A stretch of 64,000 bases of DNA from contig NZ_JANLCN010000002.1 of assembly GCF_024979255.1 (NCBI RefSeq), positions 434,001 to 498,000 on the forward strand. The letters run 5' to 3'. The translations under genes were made by a program, and so were the position numbers. The stretch comes from Herbiconiux moechotypicola. Its GTDB lineage: Bacteria; Actinomycetota; Actinomycetes; Actinomycetales; Microbacteriaceae. The notes beneath the pieces were generated by a model that did not search any database, had not been told where the DNA came from, and worked only from the letters and a program-made list of their open reading frames with translations. Of the stretch, positions 26,259 to 34,190 are shown in pieces (within the stretch, counting starts at the first letter, position 1; every line of letters begins with the position of its first letter).

Positions 26259-26939
26259 TCAGGCGGTGAGCCAGATGGAGTCGGTGGCGTCGGGGGTGAG
26301 GGAGACGCCGGCGGGAGCAGCGATGGCGGCGGGCAGGGGGATGAGGGTGGCGCCGGGTGCGGCATCCGGGTCGGTGGGTTCTACGCGGACGCGGGTGCCG
26401 GGGCCGATGCCATGGGCGGCGAGGGATTCGAGGAGGGAGGGGTCGCGGTCGCTGATGCGCACGACGGTGCCCTCGTGGCCGGGGCGCGCATCCTGGAGCA
26501 CCACGGCGTCGAACACCGGCACGGTGCCGTCGGCGGCGGGGATGGGGTCGCCGTGCGGGTCTTGGGCGGGGCGGCCGAGGCGGGCGTCGATGGCGTCGAG
26601 GAGGCGGTCGCTGAGGGCGTGCTCGAGCACCTCGGCCTCGTCGTGCACTTCGTGCCAGCCGTAGCCCATCTCCTGCACCAGCCAGGTCTCGATGAGGCGG
26701 TGCCGGCGCACCACGCCCATGGCGCGCATCCGGCCCGCCGCGGTGAGCGTGAGCGGCCCGTACGGCACGTGGCTGAGGTAGCCGGCCGCCGCGAGCTTCT
26801 TCACCATCTCGGTGACCGACGAGGGGGCCACTCCGAGCCGTGCGGCCAGCGCCGAGGGCGTGATGGGGTCGGGCTGCCACTCGGTGTGCGCGTAGATCGT
26901 CTTGAGGTAGTTCTCGGTGGCGGTCTCGGGCTCAGGCAT
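26259..26939 (-). CDS. mntR: DtxR-family manganese-type metalloregulator
   Basis: Length 226 residues. Helix-turn-helix ITPSALAARLGVAPSSVTEM, then the dimer/metal domain RRHRLIETWLVQEMGYGWHE, then DEAEVLEHALSD, and an SH3-like FeoA domain (RPGHEGTVVRISDRDPSLLE). The metal motif reads E-A-E-V-L-E-H, whereas iron-type DtxR/IdeR has Cys at the third position; Glu there is the manganese type (as in MntR). It probably represses mntH at 31629. The start overlaps a palindrome AGGCAT-G-ATGCCT at 26934-26946, related to the mntH operator. Co-directional with the upstream yitT/hisC-like pair, 32 bp away. Confidence 0.87.
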   Translation of the reverse strand: MPEPETATENYLKTIYAHTEWQPDPITPSALAARLGVAPSSVTEMVKKLAAAGYLSHVPYGPLTLTAAGRMRAMGVVRRHRLIETWLVQEMGYGWHEVHDEAEVLEHALSDRLLDAIDARLGRPAQDPHGDPIPAADGTVPVFDAVVLQDARPGHEGTVVRISDRDPSLLESLAAHGIGPGTRVRVEPTDPDAAPGATLIPLPAAIAAPAGVSLTPDATDSIWLTA

Positions 26940-26954
26940 GATGCCTCAAGCCTA
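26934..26954 (-). promoter_or_regulatory. mntR start-region palindrome and -10
   Basis: On the minus strand TTTAGGCT (containing -10-like TAGGCT, 26954-26949) is followed 9 nt later by the mntR ATG. The ATG lies inside AGGCAT-C-ATGCCT, a 6-bp-arm palindrome. Both blocks share TTTAGGC and AGGCAT with the perfect palindrome on mntH, so MntR autoregulation is plausible. No convincing -35 is seen. Confidence 0.5.
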
Positions 26955-29526: not shown

Positions 29527-30981
29527 ATGCTCATGAACGATCGGATGCTCCGCCTGGACGCGATCCTCGACGAGCTCGTCGAGGTGGAGCGCTCGCTCGC
29601 GCGCGGTGCGGCCCGGCGGGCCCGCCTGCTGGCGGAGGCGACGGCGGTGCGGCTCGCCCAGGCGGAGCGGGGTTCGGAGGGGCTCGCGATGAGGTCGCTG
29701 GTGGCCGAGATCGGATGCGCGACGCGGGTGTCGGAGGGAACGGTCGCCCGTCTGGTCAATGAGGCGGAGATCCTCGTCGGTTCGTTGCCGGGAACGCTCG
29801 AGGCACTGTCGTCGGGGGCGATCTCGTATCGGCACGCGCAGGTGGTGGCGCGGCACGCCGTGAGTGTTCCGGTCGGGGCGCGTGCCGGGTTCGAGGCTGT
29901 GGTGTTGCACGAGGCGGAGGTGCTCACGCCGTCCCGGTTCGAGCGGGTGGTGCGGCGGGAGCGGGAGCGGGTGCATCCGGAGTCGATCGAGGAGCGCACG
30001 GTGGCCGCGCAGGCTGAGCGGAGTGTGCGGTTCGAGCCTGATGTCGACGGCATGGCGTGGTTGGTGTGCCATCTGCCGGCCGTGGTGGCGGTGGCGGTCG
30101 ATGACCGGCTCGATCGTCTGGCGCGGGCTGCTCGCTCGGCCGGTGAGGGGCGCACGCACGGGCAGTTGCGAGCGGATGCGTTGGGTGAGCTGCTGCTGGG
30201 CGGTGGCGCAGGCGCGGGCGCAGGCGCGGGCAGCGACACCGGCTCCGGTTCGGGCGTGGGTGATGGTTGCGACCGTATCGTGCCGACGGTGGTGCTCACG
30301 GTTCCTGCGCTGACACTGCTGGGGCATGATGCAGGGCAGGCGCGGCTCGAGGGGTATGGTCCAATCGATGTGCCGACCGCGCGCCGTCTTGCTGCGAGGG
30401 CTCCGAGTTTCGTGCGAATCCTGACTCATCCTGAGTCGGGGGAGACGGTCTCGGTGGGACGAACCCGGTACCGGCCTCCGGCTGATCTGCGGTTGGCGTT
30501 GGAGCTCGCGGACGAGTTCTGCCGGTTCCCTGGGTGCGCGCGGCGGGCTTCCCGCTGTGAGCTCGACCACACGGAGGACTGGGCGGGTGGGGGCGAGACC
30601 TCGCGGGCGAATCTGCATCACCTGTGTGTGCGGCACCACCACGTGAAACACGACTCGACCGGGTGGAGGGTCGCGGCGGGTCGTGATCGCATCCTGCGCT
30701 GGACCTCCCCGACCGGTCGCACCTACGAGACCCGGCCGTCGGGGTCGCCGGCGTCTCCATGGCCCCGATCGGCGGTCCGCGCTCCGCTGCCCGCCCGCTC
30801 GACCCCTCTGGATTCGTGCACCCGAGGTCCCGAGCGTCGGCGAAGGCCTGTCTTCCGCGACGAGAGCGCTCGAGACCACCTGCTCGTGGGTTCGCCCGGG
30901 AGGTCACTCACCACCGGGCGGCCAACCACGCGTGGAACGAGCGCGCCGGATCCACGACTCGACGAACCGCCTCCGTTCTAG
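29527..30981 (+). CDS. DUF222 (13E12-type) protein with C-terminal HNH nuclease
   Basis: Length 484 residues. The DUF222 region is helical (AILDELVEVERSLARGAARR onwards), followed by a Gly/Ala/Ser linker (GGGAGAGAGAGSDTGSGSG) and a C-terminal HNH domain with four zinc-type residues: FCRFPGCARRASRCELDHTE, then ANLHHLCVRHHHVKHDSTGW. The catalytic HNH residues are the His of LDHTE, Asn of ANLHH and His of HHHVKH. About 110 residues beyond the HNH are Arg/Pro/Ser-rich. This family is multi-copy in many actinobacteria; its role is not established and no mobile-element ends are visible here. Confidence 0.85.
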   Translation: MLMNDRMLRLDAILDELVEVERSLARGAARRARLLAEATAVRLAQAERGSEGLAMRSLVAEIGCATRVSEGTVARLVNEAEILVGSLPGTLEALSSGAISYRHAQVVARHAVSVPVGARAGFEAVVLHEAEVLTPSRFERVVRRERERVHPESIEERTVAAQAERSVRFEPDVDGMAWLVCHLPAVVAVAVDDRLDRLARAARSAGEGRTHGQLRADALGELLLGGGAGAGAGAGSDTGSGSGVGDGCDRIVPTVVLTVPALTLLGHDAGQARLEGYGPIDVPTARRLAARAPSFVRILTHPESGETVSVGRTRYRPPADLRLALELADEFCRFPGCARRASRCELDHTEDWAGGGETSRANLHHLCVRHHHVKHDSTGWRVAAGRDRILRWTSPTGRTYETRPSGSPASPWPRSAVRAPLPARSTPLDSCTRGPERRRRPVFRDESARDHLLVGSPGRSLTTGRPTTRGTSAPDPRLDEPPPF

Positions 30982-31060: not shown

Positions 31061-31111
31061 CGCACCCGCACCCGCACCCGCACCCGCACCCGCACCCGCA
31101 CCTGCACCTGC
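31061..31111. repeat. Hexanucleotide tandem repeat (CCGCAC)n
   Basis: About eight copies of the 6-bp unit, the last two changed to CTGCAC, lie between the HNH gene and the convergent PPOX gene. This intergenic sequence (30982-31149) shows no gene. The repeat is too short and regular for CRISPR. Confidence 0.85.
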
Positions 31112-31149
31112 GCTGACTGCTGACGCTGGGTGCTGATGTGGACGCGGTG

Positions 31150-31551
31150 TCAGTGGGGGCGCGCGATGAGTTCGGGGGAGCCGAGGAGGCGGGTGGTCTC
31201 GAAGGCGAGTGCGACACGGAGGGGGTTGGGGCGTGGGGCGCGGTAGCGCACGGTGTAGCGCTCGACGGCGTCGCGCACGGAGGCCTCGTCGGTGAGCACC
31301 TGGGCTCTGCCGCTGAAGGTGAGCCAGCGGCCGCCGTCGACCTGGCTCACGGCCACCCGTGGATCGCGTCGCGCGTTGAGCGCCTTCTGGCTGGTGCCCG
31401 AGGTGATGACGCGCACGATGCCCGTGGCGGCGTCGAAGGTGAAGCCGACCGGGACGACGTGGGGTGAACCGTCACCGAGAAGGGTGGTGAGGGTCGCGAG
31501 GTGGTACTCGCTCACGAACGACAGTCCGGCGGGGGTGAGCAGCTCGGGCAT
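31150..31551 (-). CDS. PPOX-fold F420- or FMN-dependent oxidoreductase
   Basis: Length 133 residues. Split-barrel flavoprotein: FVSEYHLATLTTLLGDGSPH, VVPVGFTFDAATGIVRVITS, GTSQKALNARRDPRVAVSQV, DGGRWLTFSGRAQVLTD. The TSGTSQKALNARRDPRVA segment is the cofactor phosphate-binding site of PPOX class F420 enzymes. The substrate is unknown. TAGGCT at 31563-31558 ends 6 nt before the ATG and no Shine-Dalgarno is present, so a leaderless mRNA is predicted. Confidence 0.82.
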   Translation of the reverse strand: MPELLTPAGLSFVSEYHLATLTTLLGDGSPHVVPVGFTFDAATGIVRVITSGTSQKALNARRDPRVAVSQVDGGRWLTFSGRAQVLTDEASVRDAVERYTVRYRAPRPNPLRVALAFETTRLLGSPELIARPH

Positions 31552-31593
31552 GCCCTCAGCCTAGGCGCGACACGCCGGACGAGAGCCCAAGGG

Positions 31594-31640
31594 TTGCGTG
31601 CCCCTCGGCCGATCGCTAATTTTTAGGCATGCCTAAAAAT
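31594..31640 (+). promoter_or_regulatory. mntH promoter with 22-bp perfect palindrome over the start codon
   Basis: The promoter reads -35 TTGCGT (31594-31599), 17-nt spacer, -10 TAATTT (31617-31622), and the ATG at 31629 is 6 nt further on, exactly where transcription should start. A perfect 22-bp palindrome (left half ATTTTTAGGCA) spans 31619-31640 with its centre in the start codon, overlapping the -10. It resembles DtxR-family boxes (TTAGG...CCTAA). It should be the MntR operator, shutting off transcription when manganese is plentiful. Confidence 0.85.
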
Positions 31641-33056
31641 GCGCCGCCGACGTTGCCGACGCCACCGCACTCCCGCGCCGGCGAGCTCGACGGGGGTGCC
31701 GTCGTTCGCCCTCGCTGGTGGCACGGCGTCGTGCTCCTGGGCCCGGCCTTCGTCGCCTCCATCGCCTACGTCGACCCGGGCAACGTAGCCGCCAACCTCA
31801 CCGCGGGCGCGCAGTACGGCTACCTGCTCGTGTGGGTGCTGGTGCTCGCCAACCTCATGGCCATGCTCATCCAGTACCAGTCGGCGAAGCTGGGCCTCGT
31901 CACCGGCCGCACCCTGCCCGAGCACGTCGGCGCGCGGGCACGACCCTGGACCCGCCGCGCCTACTGGCTCCAGGCCGAGCTCGTCGCCGCCGCCACCGAC
32001 ATCGCCGAGGTCATCGGCGGGGCCCTCGCCCTCAACCTCCTCTTCGGCCTGCCGCTGGTGCTGGGCGGGCTCATCGTCGGGGTGGTGTCGCTCGTTCTGC
32101 TGATCGTGCAGTCGAGTCGCCGTCAGCGCAGTTTCGAATTCGTGATCATCGGGATGCTCGCGGTGATCGCTTTCGGCTTCCTCACCGGCACCTTCGTGTC
32201 GGGCGTCGACTGGCCCGAGGCGGTCGATGGACTCGTCCCCCGGTTCGAGGGCACCCCCACCGTGCTGCTCGCCGCGAGCATGCTGGGCGCCACCGTCATG
32301 CCGCACGCCATCTATTTGCACTCCGCCCTCGCCCGCGACCGCCACCACGCCGCCTTCGCCGCCACCGCCGAGAAGACCGACTTCACGCGTCGCGCCGCTG
32401 CCAATCCGGCAGCCGCGACAGCGAACCCGGCTGCCGACGCCGCCGTGAACCCGGCCCCCGACCCAGCGAGCATCGGCACCGAGCTCGACGTCGCGCCGAG
32501 CCGCGTGCGCCGCCTCCTCAGGGCCACCCGCTTCGACGTGATCGTCGCCCTCCTCCTCGCCGGCGCCGTCAACATCGCCATGCTCCTGCTCGCCGCCTCC
32601 AGCCTCCGCGGCGTCGAGGGCACCGACACCATCCCGGGCGCCTACGACGCCATCGCCGCCGCCCTCGGCCCGGCCGTCGCCACCATCTTCGCCATCGGCC
32701 TCCTCGCCTCGGGGCTCGCCTCCACCTCGGTGGGCGCCTACGCCGGCTCGGTCATCATGAAGGGGCTCCTGCGGGTGCGCATCCCGGTGGTGGCCCGCCG
32801 TGCCGTCACGCTCATCCCGGCCCTCGTCGTGCTCGGCGCCGGCATCGACCCCACCTGGGCCCTCGTGCTCAGCCAGGTGCTGCTGAGCATCGGCATCCCG
32901 TTCGCCCTCATCCCGCTCATCCGCCTCACCGGCAACCGGATGCTCATGGGCGAGTTCGCCGACCGCCTCCCGGTGCGCCTGGTCGCCTGGGCGGTCGCGG
33001 CGCTCATCGTGGCCCTCAACGTGGTGCTCATCGCCCTCACGCTGACCGGGTCGTGA
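31629..33056 (+). CDS. mntH: Nramp-family Mn(2+)/Fe(2+) transporter
   Basis: Length 475 residues. Eleven or so membrane segments. The helix-1 metal motif is VASIAYVDPGNVAANLTAGA (DPGN); the helix-6 motif is GATVMPHAIYLHSALARD (MPH). The loop after helix 6 contains an unusual NPAAATANPAADAAVNPAP low-complexity insert. Proton-driven uptake of manganese is expected. It is leaderless by prediction and lies under a 22-bp palindrome, with a manganese-type regulator 4.7 kb away. N-terminal residues are hydrophilic (MPKNAPPTLPTPPHSRAGEL). Confidence 0.93.
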   Translation: MPKNAPPTLPTPPHSRAGELDGGAVVRPRWWHGVVLLGPAFVASIAYVDPGNVAANLTAGAQYGYLLVWVLVLANLMAMLIQYQSAKLGLVTGRTLPEHVGARARPWTRRAYWLQAELVAAATDIAEVIGGALALNLLFGLPLVLGGLIVGVVSLVLLIVQSSRRQRSFEFVIIGMLAVIAFGFLTGTFVSGVDWPEAVDGLVPRFEGTPTVLLAASMLGATVMPHAIYLHSALARDRHHAAFAATAEKTDFTRRAAANPAAATANPAADAAVNPAPDPASIGTELDVAPSRVRRLLRATRFDVIVALLLAGAVNIAMLLLAASSLRGVEGTDTIPGAYDAIAAALGPAVATIFAIGLLASGLASTSVGAYAGSVIMKGLLRVRIPVVARRAVTLIPALVVLGAGIDPTWALVLSQVLLSIGIPFALIPLIRLTGNRMLMGEFADRLPVRLVAWAVAALIVALNVVLIALTLTGS

Positions 33057-33131
33057 CACTCACGGGATCCTGACGCCGCCCGCACCCGTGGCGTCGCCGG
33101 CCGTTCACCCACGCGTCGTATCGTCGAGCCC

Positions 33132-34190
33132 ATGACCCTCATCGACAACGCCGTGTACGTCGACGGCGTGCGCGTTCCCGACCCTCACACGCTCGACGAG
33201 ACCTACTCGCTCATGCACGAGCGTGGAGGCATGGCGTGGATCGGCCTCTACCGGCCCGACGCCGGGGAGATCCACTCGATCGAGACCGAGTTCGGCCTGC
33301 ACCACCTCGCCGTCGAAGACGCGCTCACCGGCCATCAGCGCGCCAAGCTGGAGCGCTACGGCGACACCCTGTTCGTGGTGTTGCGCCCCGCCCGCTACCT
33401 CGACGCCGAGGAGCGCGTGGAGTTCGGCGAGGTGCACGTGTTCATCGGCCCGAGCTTCGTCGTGACCGTGCGTCACGCCGAGAAGCCCGACCTCGGCGCG
33501 GTGCGGCACAGGCTCGAGGGCAACCCCGAGCTGCTGAAGCTCGGGCCCGAGGCGGTGCTCTACGCGATCGTCGACGAGGTGGTCGACGAGTACGGCCCGG
33601 TGGTGGCCGGCCTGCAGAACGACATCGACGAGATCGAGAAGCAGCTGTTCGGCGGAGACCCCGACGTGTCACGCCGCATCTACGACCTCATCGGCGAGGT
33701 GATGGACTTCCAGCGCGCCGCGCATCCGCTCGCCGCCATGCTCGAAGCGCTCCTGCGCGGCGCCGAGAAGTACCACGTCGACCTCGAGGTGCAGCGGGGC
33801 CTGCGCGACGTGCTCGACCACGCGCTCTCGCTGGCCGGCCACGCGGACGCGTTCCGCGCCACCCTGCAGAACGCCCTCACCGTTCACTCCACGCTCACCA
33901 CGCAGCAGCAGAACGACGAGATGCGGCGCATCTCGGAGGCCAACCTCACCCTCGCCGAAGACACCCGCAAGCTCGCCGAGGCCAGCATCGCGCAGGGCGA
34001 CCAGGTGAAGAAGATCTCGTCGTGGGCGGCCATCATCTTCGCACCGAGCCTCATCGCCGGCATCTACGGCATGAACTTCGACTACATGCCCGAGCTGCAC
34101 TGGGTGTTCGGGTACCCGATGGCGATCGGTGGGATGGTGGTGCTGGCGGGAGCGCTGTATACGGTGTTCCGGCGCAACCACTGGCTGTAG
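33132..34190 (+). CDS. corA: CorA-family Mg(2+)/Co(2+) channel
   Basis: Length 352 residues. A large cytoplasmic domain (FGLHHLAVEDALTGHQRAKL, FVVLRPARYLDAEERVEFGE) leads to two C-terminal membrane helices; the first ends in GIYGMNFDYMPEL with the GMN selectivity motif, and the protein ends FRRNHWL. TATCGT at 33119-33124 lies 7 nt before the ATG, so it may be leaderless. 75 bp after mntH, same strand, but with its own promoter-like site. Divalent cation uptake next to a manganese transporter is a sensible pairing. Confidence 0.93.
   Translation: MTLIDNAVYVDGVRVPDPHTLDETYSLMHERGGMAWIGLYRPDAGEIHSIETEFGLHHLAVEDALTGHQRAKLERYGDTLFVVLRPARYLDAEERVEFGEVHVFIGPSFVVTVRHAEKPDLGAVRHRLEGNPELLKLGPEAVLYAIVDEVVDEYGPVVAGLQNDIDEIEKQLFGGDPDVSRRIYDLIGEVMDFQRAAHPLAAMLEALLRGAEKYHVDLEVQRGLRDVLDHALSLAGHADAFRATLQNALTVHSTLTTQQQNDEMRRISEANLTLAEDTRKLAEASIAQGDQVKKISSWAAIIFAPSLIAGIYGMNFDYMPELHWVFGYPMAIGGMVVLAGALYTVFRRNHWL

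Follow-up and report, generated by a model that had tools for sequence, protein, structure and literature searches.

The accessible part of the work on MntR of Mycobacterium tuberculosis describes control of both mntH and mntABCD by this regulator (PMC5855569). In Corynebacterium diphtheriae, genes repressed by DtxR have sites that lie over the -10 box or downstream of the start, the -10 boxes are well conserved and the -35 boxes are weak, and 20% of genes are leaderless, according to the available portion of the paper (PMC5784534). For AcuR of Rhodobacter sphaeroides, the accessible text gives experimental evidence both that the acuR-acuI-dddL transcript is leaderless and begins exactly at the AUG, and that the operator overlaps the promoter; the transcripts of lambda cI and Tn1721 tetR are leaderless as well (PMC3017554).

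The window considered here is the whole 64-kb stretch of Herbiconiux moechotypicola DNA that was analysed. The palindrome at 31619-31640 is very probably an MntR operator that encloses the start codon of a leaderless mntH gene, a reading based on sequence and genome comparison. The target pair is the same as in the M. tuberculosis MntR regulon, an NRAMP importer and an ABC manganese importer, as far as the available text of that study goes (PMC5855569). The DtxR sites of C. diphtheriae lie over the -10 box or downstream of the start, so the mode of action at mntH would be ordinary; the accessible part of that paper does not describe start codons held at the centre of an operator in several species and gene families (PMC5784534). 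The nearest experimental parallel seen is acuR, which has the leaderless start and the repressor operator over the promoter that are predicted for mntH. AcuR differs in that it belongs to the TetR family and responds to the inducer acrylate instead of a metal, and the legend of Figure 5 gives the 36 bp upstream of the ATG; the accessible text does not place the start codon in the operator. Lambda cI and Tn1721 tetR are leaderless repressor genes, whereas mntH encodes a metal transporter, and the likeness considered is that of leaderlessness (all from the accessible part of PMC3017554). A search of mostly non-subscription literature for leaderless MntR or mntH, for MntR in Microbacteriaceae and for operators over start codons found no description of such a layout. 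As judged from the genomes compared below, what is unusual is that two gene families keep their start codon exactly at the centre of the operator, with a predicted effect on the protein.

The mntH gene and its start region

The mntH gene (31629-33056, + strand) encodes an NRAMP-family Mn2+ importer with the N-terminus MPKN. The product contains the NRAMP domain PF01566 (Pfam, 349.6 bits) and passes the MntH subfamily model NF001923 of NCBIfam (442.2 bits against a cut-off of 430). A gene for a CorA-family transporter (Mg2+/Co2+ type) is located directly 3' of mntH on the same strand (33132-34190).

The original prediction placed a 22-bp perfect palindrome with its centre in the mntH start codon, and ATTTTTAGGCATGCCTAAAAAT is found at 31619-31640 (no strand assigned) with its centre between 31629 and 31630, within the ATG (31629-31631). 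No other perfect palindrome in the window is as long. From base composition alone, about 0.10 perfect palindromes of 22 bp are expected per 64 kb and 6.8 per 4.28-Mb genome; therefore, the length alone proves little, and placement and conservation carry the case. The window also has a 20-bp perfect palindrome (CCTCGACGAGCTCGTCGAGG, 29565-29584), located within a 484-aa ORF (29527-30981) near its start.

The promoter elements named in the same prediction are all at the positions claimed. The -10 hexamer TAATTT (31617-31622, + strand) is separated by 6 nt from the ATG and by a 17-nt spacer from a -35-like hexamer TTGCGT (31594-31599, + strand). The -35 is weak, since it matches TTGACA at only 3 of 6 bases and a promoter scan of 31100-33200 returned no sigma-70-type match. 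A conserved -35 was also not found in a profile of 26 relatives outside the genus whose mntH start is centred on the operator. With this 6-nt gap after TAATTT, transcription is expected to begin at the A of the start codon; the codon at 31629-31631 (+ strand) would be both the start codon at the operator centre and the first triplet of the transcript. A -10 box about 6 nt before the start, without a Shine-Dalgarno (SD) sequence, is taken here to mark a leaderless gene, and mntH fits this pattern, as do most of its centred relatives (see below). The TAA of the -10 hexamer, at 31617, is an in-frame stop just 5' of the ATG, which makes an upstream mntH start impossible in the window.

Conservation of the proposed operator in the genus and family

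The genus sample comprised 16 Herbiconiux-genus genomes, all of which have mntH, and in 16/16 the pattern TTHGG-N-ATG/GTG-CCDAA lies over its start. The half-sites are of the A/T form in 11 of these operators and of the C/T form in 5. The strict pattern TTTHGGNNNNCCDAAA occurs at 20 sites in the 16 genomes, compared to 3 for the reversed control. Genome-wide, the H. moechotypicola assembly has a single TTTHGGNNNNCCDAAA site, the one at mntH, so a wider regulon was not found there with this pattern. In the same genome, GTAGGCATGCCTAA spans the ATG of a prophage-like gene (MPKSVARL..., contig C22; L005 1501-1514), with a single mismatch to the operator core. A scan allowing two mismatches in the core was at chance level, with 3 forward matches, the mntH site included, against 5 for the reversed control, and matches of this quality arise by chance.

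In the family sample of 150 genomes, 105 genomes yielded 107 mntH starts, for a total of 123 genes with the 16 from the genus. The count takes in 105 of the 106 family genomes outside the genus with an mntH match (G025 was left out), and C-terminal fragments of split matches (e.g. L038-L040) were excluded from the counts. The conserved core TTAGGCATGCCTAA (31623-31636, no strand assigned) corresponds to the family motif TTHGGNNNNCCDAA, and the search motif keeps the start-codon positions free (NNN). The motif is present at 67/123 mntH genes, and 56 have no strict motif. An in-frame start codon lies exactly at the motif centre in 42 of the 67 (ATG in 26, GTG in 16), and in the other 25 the operator is present yet not centred on the start. 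The motif thus recurs over mntH starts throughout the genus and in most motif-bearing genes of the combined sample, and the centred genes also support the predicted placement of a putative operator over the -10 box and start codon. By genus label, the 42 centred genes are spread over 17 genera. Named examples besides Herbiconiux are Microbacterium testaceum (read by eye) and M. fluvii, both with GTG. A second operator is found 27-28 bp upstream in 12 of the 42 (e.g. L092, L107, L118).

A second family of genes with the same layout

The genus scans and the scans of genomes with a close MntR (see below) also list sites away from mntH, and 19 distinct loci of this kind were examined; the non-mntH sites of G103, G050 and G021 were left out of this set. 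Twelve of the 19 have a gene of 299-315 codons with its start codon at the operator centre (ATG in 9, GTG in 3), and the remaining 7 have no gene with this layout. All 12 genes have a TANNNT box within 1 nt of the place expected for a leaderless gene, and in 11 the spacing is exact. The proteins begin with Met/Val-Pro-Lys followed by a signal sequence and a lipobox, as read by eye. All 4 that were scanned with Pfam match PF01297 (ZnuA), and the other 8 are alike by eye; the 3 compared to NCBIfam match models of manganese or zinc ABC transporters, all below cut-off. By these matches, the 12 centred genes outside mntH are predicted to encode ABC-type metal-binding lipoproteins (mntA type), a family unrelated to NRAMP. 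Tandem operators also precede some mntA-type genes (e.g. L156, L164, L259).

The DtxR-family regulator

The gene at 26259-26939 (- strand), proposed to be mntR, encodes a DtxR-family regulator as originally predicted: the Pfam domains Fe_dep_repress (PF01325, 66 bits), Fe_dep_repr_C (PF02742, 97.5 bits) and FeoA (37.7 bits) all score over cut-off. The MntR equivalog model NF047407 is the best NCBIfam match, yet its score of 170.6 bits is below the cut-off of 350, and two further MntR models are also below cut-off. The nearest solved chain is 5zr4/5zr6 (E 2e-58), which we take to be M. tuberculosis MntR. In MntR-type proteins a glutamate replaces the cysteine ligand of DtxR (EAEVLEH compared to EACRWEH), and the protein has HDEAEVLEH, as does 5zr4, versus HDEACRWEH in the iron-type paralogue L148. 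Two DtxR-family proteins were found in the genome; the other is an iron-type DtxR (NF053665, 307 bits against a cut-off of 290).

Family-wide, the scores against the 26259-26939 protein split into two tiers, and the threshold for the close-MntR tier was placed at 226 bits, at the gap from 226 to 216, after the scores had been seen. For the 107 genes outside the genus, the motif is found at 44/45 mntH genes in close-MntR genomes versus 7/62 in the others (Fisher p 2e-21, uncorrected for shared ancestry). Genome-wide scans of 55 close-MntR genomes gave 84 sites versus 20 for the reversed pattern, with a site in 53/55. The same scan of 55 other family genomes gave 17 sites versus 18 reversed, with a site in 13/55, but this set is biased. 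It was drawn from 92 genomes with a weaker MntR match (47 of 54 taken) or none (8 of 38), and all 7 weaker-tier genomes with a motif-bearing mntH are among the 37 not taken. Since 3 of these 7 also match the stricter pattern, the fair comparison figure is at least 16/62. Eleven close-tier genomes have no mntH match, and in the 8 examined the site lies over an mntA-type start in 8/8, with the regulator gene within about 3 kb of it in 7/8 (G119 is the exception).

The inverted repeat lies over a promoter, occurs at more than one gene and tracks the regulator, which is the pattern taken here to identify a repressor operator. The co-occurrence at 44/45 versus 7/62 supports the prediction that the palindrome is an operator for the 26259-26939 protein. 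Binding of the operator by a different regulator, for instance the iron-type DtxR/IdeR or a protein of Zur/Fur type, is improbable. The genome does encode an iron-type DtxR, IdeR boxes also contain TTAGG-type half-sites, and the genomes of 7 motif-bearing mntH genes have no more than the weaker MntR match. However, the motif follows close orthologues of the 26259-26939 protein (the one regulator compared in this way), mntH and the regulator gene adjoin in some relatives (G039, G092, G162), and the second Nramp gene of the genome is preceded by a different palindrome.

That palindrome (GGTAAGGCTAGCCTTACC, contig C6) ends 17 nt before the likely GTG start of the second Nramp gene (L001 1337-1374) and resembles an IdeR/DtxR box. 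The two Nramp genes of the genome may respond to two different DtxR-family repressors. Several weaker-tier mntH genes (L045, L047, L049, L052, L062, L079) also have a different palindrome, e.g. TTAGGCTGGTCTAA, located 10-34 nt before the nearest in-frame start; this is perhaps the operator of a diverged MntR.

The start region of mntR itself was predicted to share TTTAGGC and AGGCAT blocks with mntH around its ATG. Both blocks are present just before the ATG, but a shared operator is not supported. The TTTAGGC block holds TAGGCT (26949-26954, - strand), a probable -10 box: a TANNNT box occurs 6-12 nt before an ATG in 16/16 genus mntR genes and is TAGGCT in 13/16, while AGGCATCATG is kept in just 2/16. 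Autoregulation of mntR through an mntH-type element was therefore rejected for the genus, and the shared blocks probably reflect a promoter element and chance.

Leaderless geometry and the position of the start

The leaderless promoter predicted for mntH is supported by its relatives. A TANNNT box lies within 1 nt of the leaderless-spacing place in 40 of the 42 centred mntH genes, versus 1.5% of random positions in the same regions; the other 2 are without the box. The best SD match is 3 nt or shorter in 40/42. A match of 4 nt or longer occurs in 2/42 centred genes versus 11/25 non-centred ones, a comparison in which taking the best of several candidate starts favours the non-centred genes. 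Eleven of the 25 non-centred genes likewise seem to be leaderless, their operator lying 27-30 nt before the start, and in the remaining ones the start is 10-60 nt past the operator centre, some with strong SD sequences. One putative operator is thus used in three layouts: with its centre on the start, some 28 bp before a leaderless start, and at a leadered gene.

An alternative accepts the operator but puts the true mntH start at another position, e.g. the in-frame TTG 24 nt downstream (31653), and takes the ATG in the palindrome as incidental; this is very unlikely. The variability of MntH N-termini past residue 3 would suit such a start, and in 9/42 centred genes an in-frame ATG or GTG occurs upstream, within 90 nt and before any stop. 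However, the upstream option is excluded in the window by the TAA at 31617, and an in-frame downstream GTG with an SD-like match of 4 nt or longer is present in just 3/42. In addition, an in-frame ATG or GTG fills the free central positions in 42/67 mntH genes and in the 12 mntA-type genes, and in the mntA-type proteins the signal sequence and lipobox come after the centred start (by eye).

The least probable alternative, that the palindrome is an RNA hairpin which masks the start codon within a longer transcript with a leader, was rejected as unlikely: the whole palindrome could pair if transcribed (50-nt fold of -10.4 kcal/mol) and the same base matching is expected from a DNA palindrome and an RNA hairpin, but shuffled sequences fold equally well (z -0.15), a -10 at leaderless spacing would leave the left arm outside the transcript, 40/42 centred genes have no SD longer than 3 nt, and the motif tracks a DNA-binding regulator and is also found upstream of genes whose nearest start is 10-60 nt downstream.

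The preferred reading is thus an MntR operator on a leaderless mntH, one that would reach from the end of the -10 box over the transcription start and into the first codons. The observed sequence, conservation, geometry and co-occurrence suggest how it may work. With abundant Mn2+, metal-loaded MntR would bind and deny RNA polymerase access to the -10/start region. Under Mn2+ shortage the operator would be free; transcription would then begin at the A of the start codon and yield a leaderless mRNA that is translated directly. With the start codon at the operator centre, codons 2-3 would also be operator sequence, and the proline wobble base tends to match the opposite half-site.

Predicted effect on the N-terminus

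Residues 2-3 (Pro-Lys) are invariant and residues 4-15 are variable in both the MntH and the mntA-type proteins, although the invariance is partly built in, since CC and AA are part of the search motif, which includes neither the central start codon nor the -10 box. Within the operator these codons are CCG or CCT for proline and AAA or AAG for lysine. The prediction that the operator constrains the N-terminal residues of MntH is supported by this fixed pair in two gene families. In the 42 centred mntH genes, the upstream half-site base and the proline wobble base are paired as C-G in 21, A-T in 14, C-T in 6 and A-G in 1. Outside the genus the counts are C-G 21, A-T 3, C-T 1 and A-G 1 (Fisher p 0.006, with few independent events). 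Such a match would be expected if the palindrome were maintained by way of a synonymous position.

Origin of the centred layout

The operator is also common outside the family, but it is rarely centred there. Among the matches listed, it is found at 9/40 mntH genes of a class sample outside the family, with none centred, and at 55/104 of an order sample outside the family, with 1 centred (L269). Taken together, the two samples outside the window's family have 64 motif-bearing mntH genes, and in 1 of these the start codon is centred on the motif. Many of the non-family genes with the operator have a candidate start exactly 28 nt past the central position. Additional family genes are centred in the class sample (L186, L188, L192) and in 2 of 3 from the order sample, where L273-L275 alone were taken in from the Microbacteriaceae rows; the counts of both samples leave out unlisted or low-ranking rows. 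The sequence of L304 is just 219 bases long. Since the operator is common but seldom centred outside the family, it probably predates the centred layout. The one centred mntH from another family in the order sample, and those of two Demequina species (Demequinaceae), which are likewise centred on the operator, would fit a layout that arose more than once.

Conclusions

With moderate confidence, it may be proposed that Microbacteriaceae have fused the MntR operator with the translation start in two unrelated importer families. Recognition by the regulator, not protein function, would then dictate the N-terminal Met/Val-Pro-Lys, the proline wobble base would co-evolve with the far half-site, and the central bases of the operator would set the choice of ATG or GTG. 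The layout would be derived, probably more than once, from an older operator that in other lineages precedes a leaderless start by about 28 bp or covers the point where transcription of a leadered gene begins.

Since leaderless genes are common in actinobacteria, a repressor located at the transcription start must act on codons. The centred operators would be a clear case, in many genera of one family, of regulatory DNA setting protein sequence. The three layouts of the operator, with its centre on the start, 28 bp before the start or at a leadered gene, form a natural comparison set, and the centred layout predicts where N-termini need checking. The MntR motif can be searched genome by genome, and the centred operators would provide a simple test of the limits that operator choice places on synonymous and amino-acid change.
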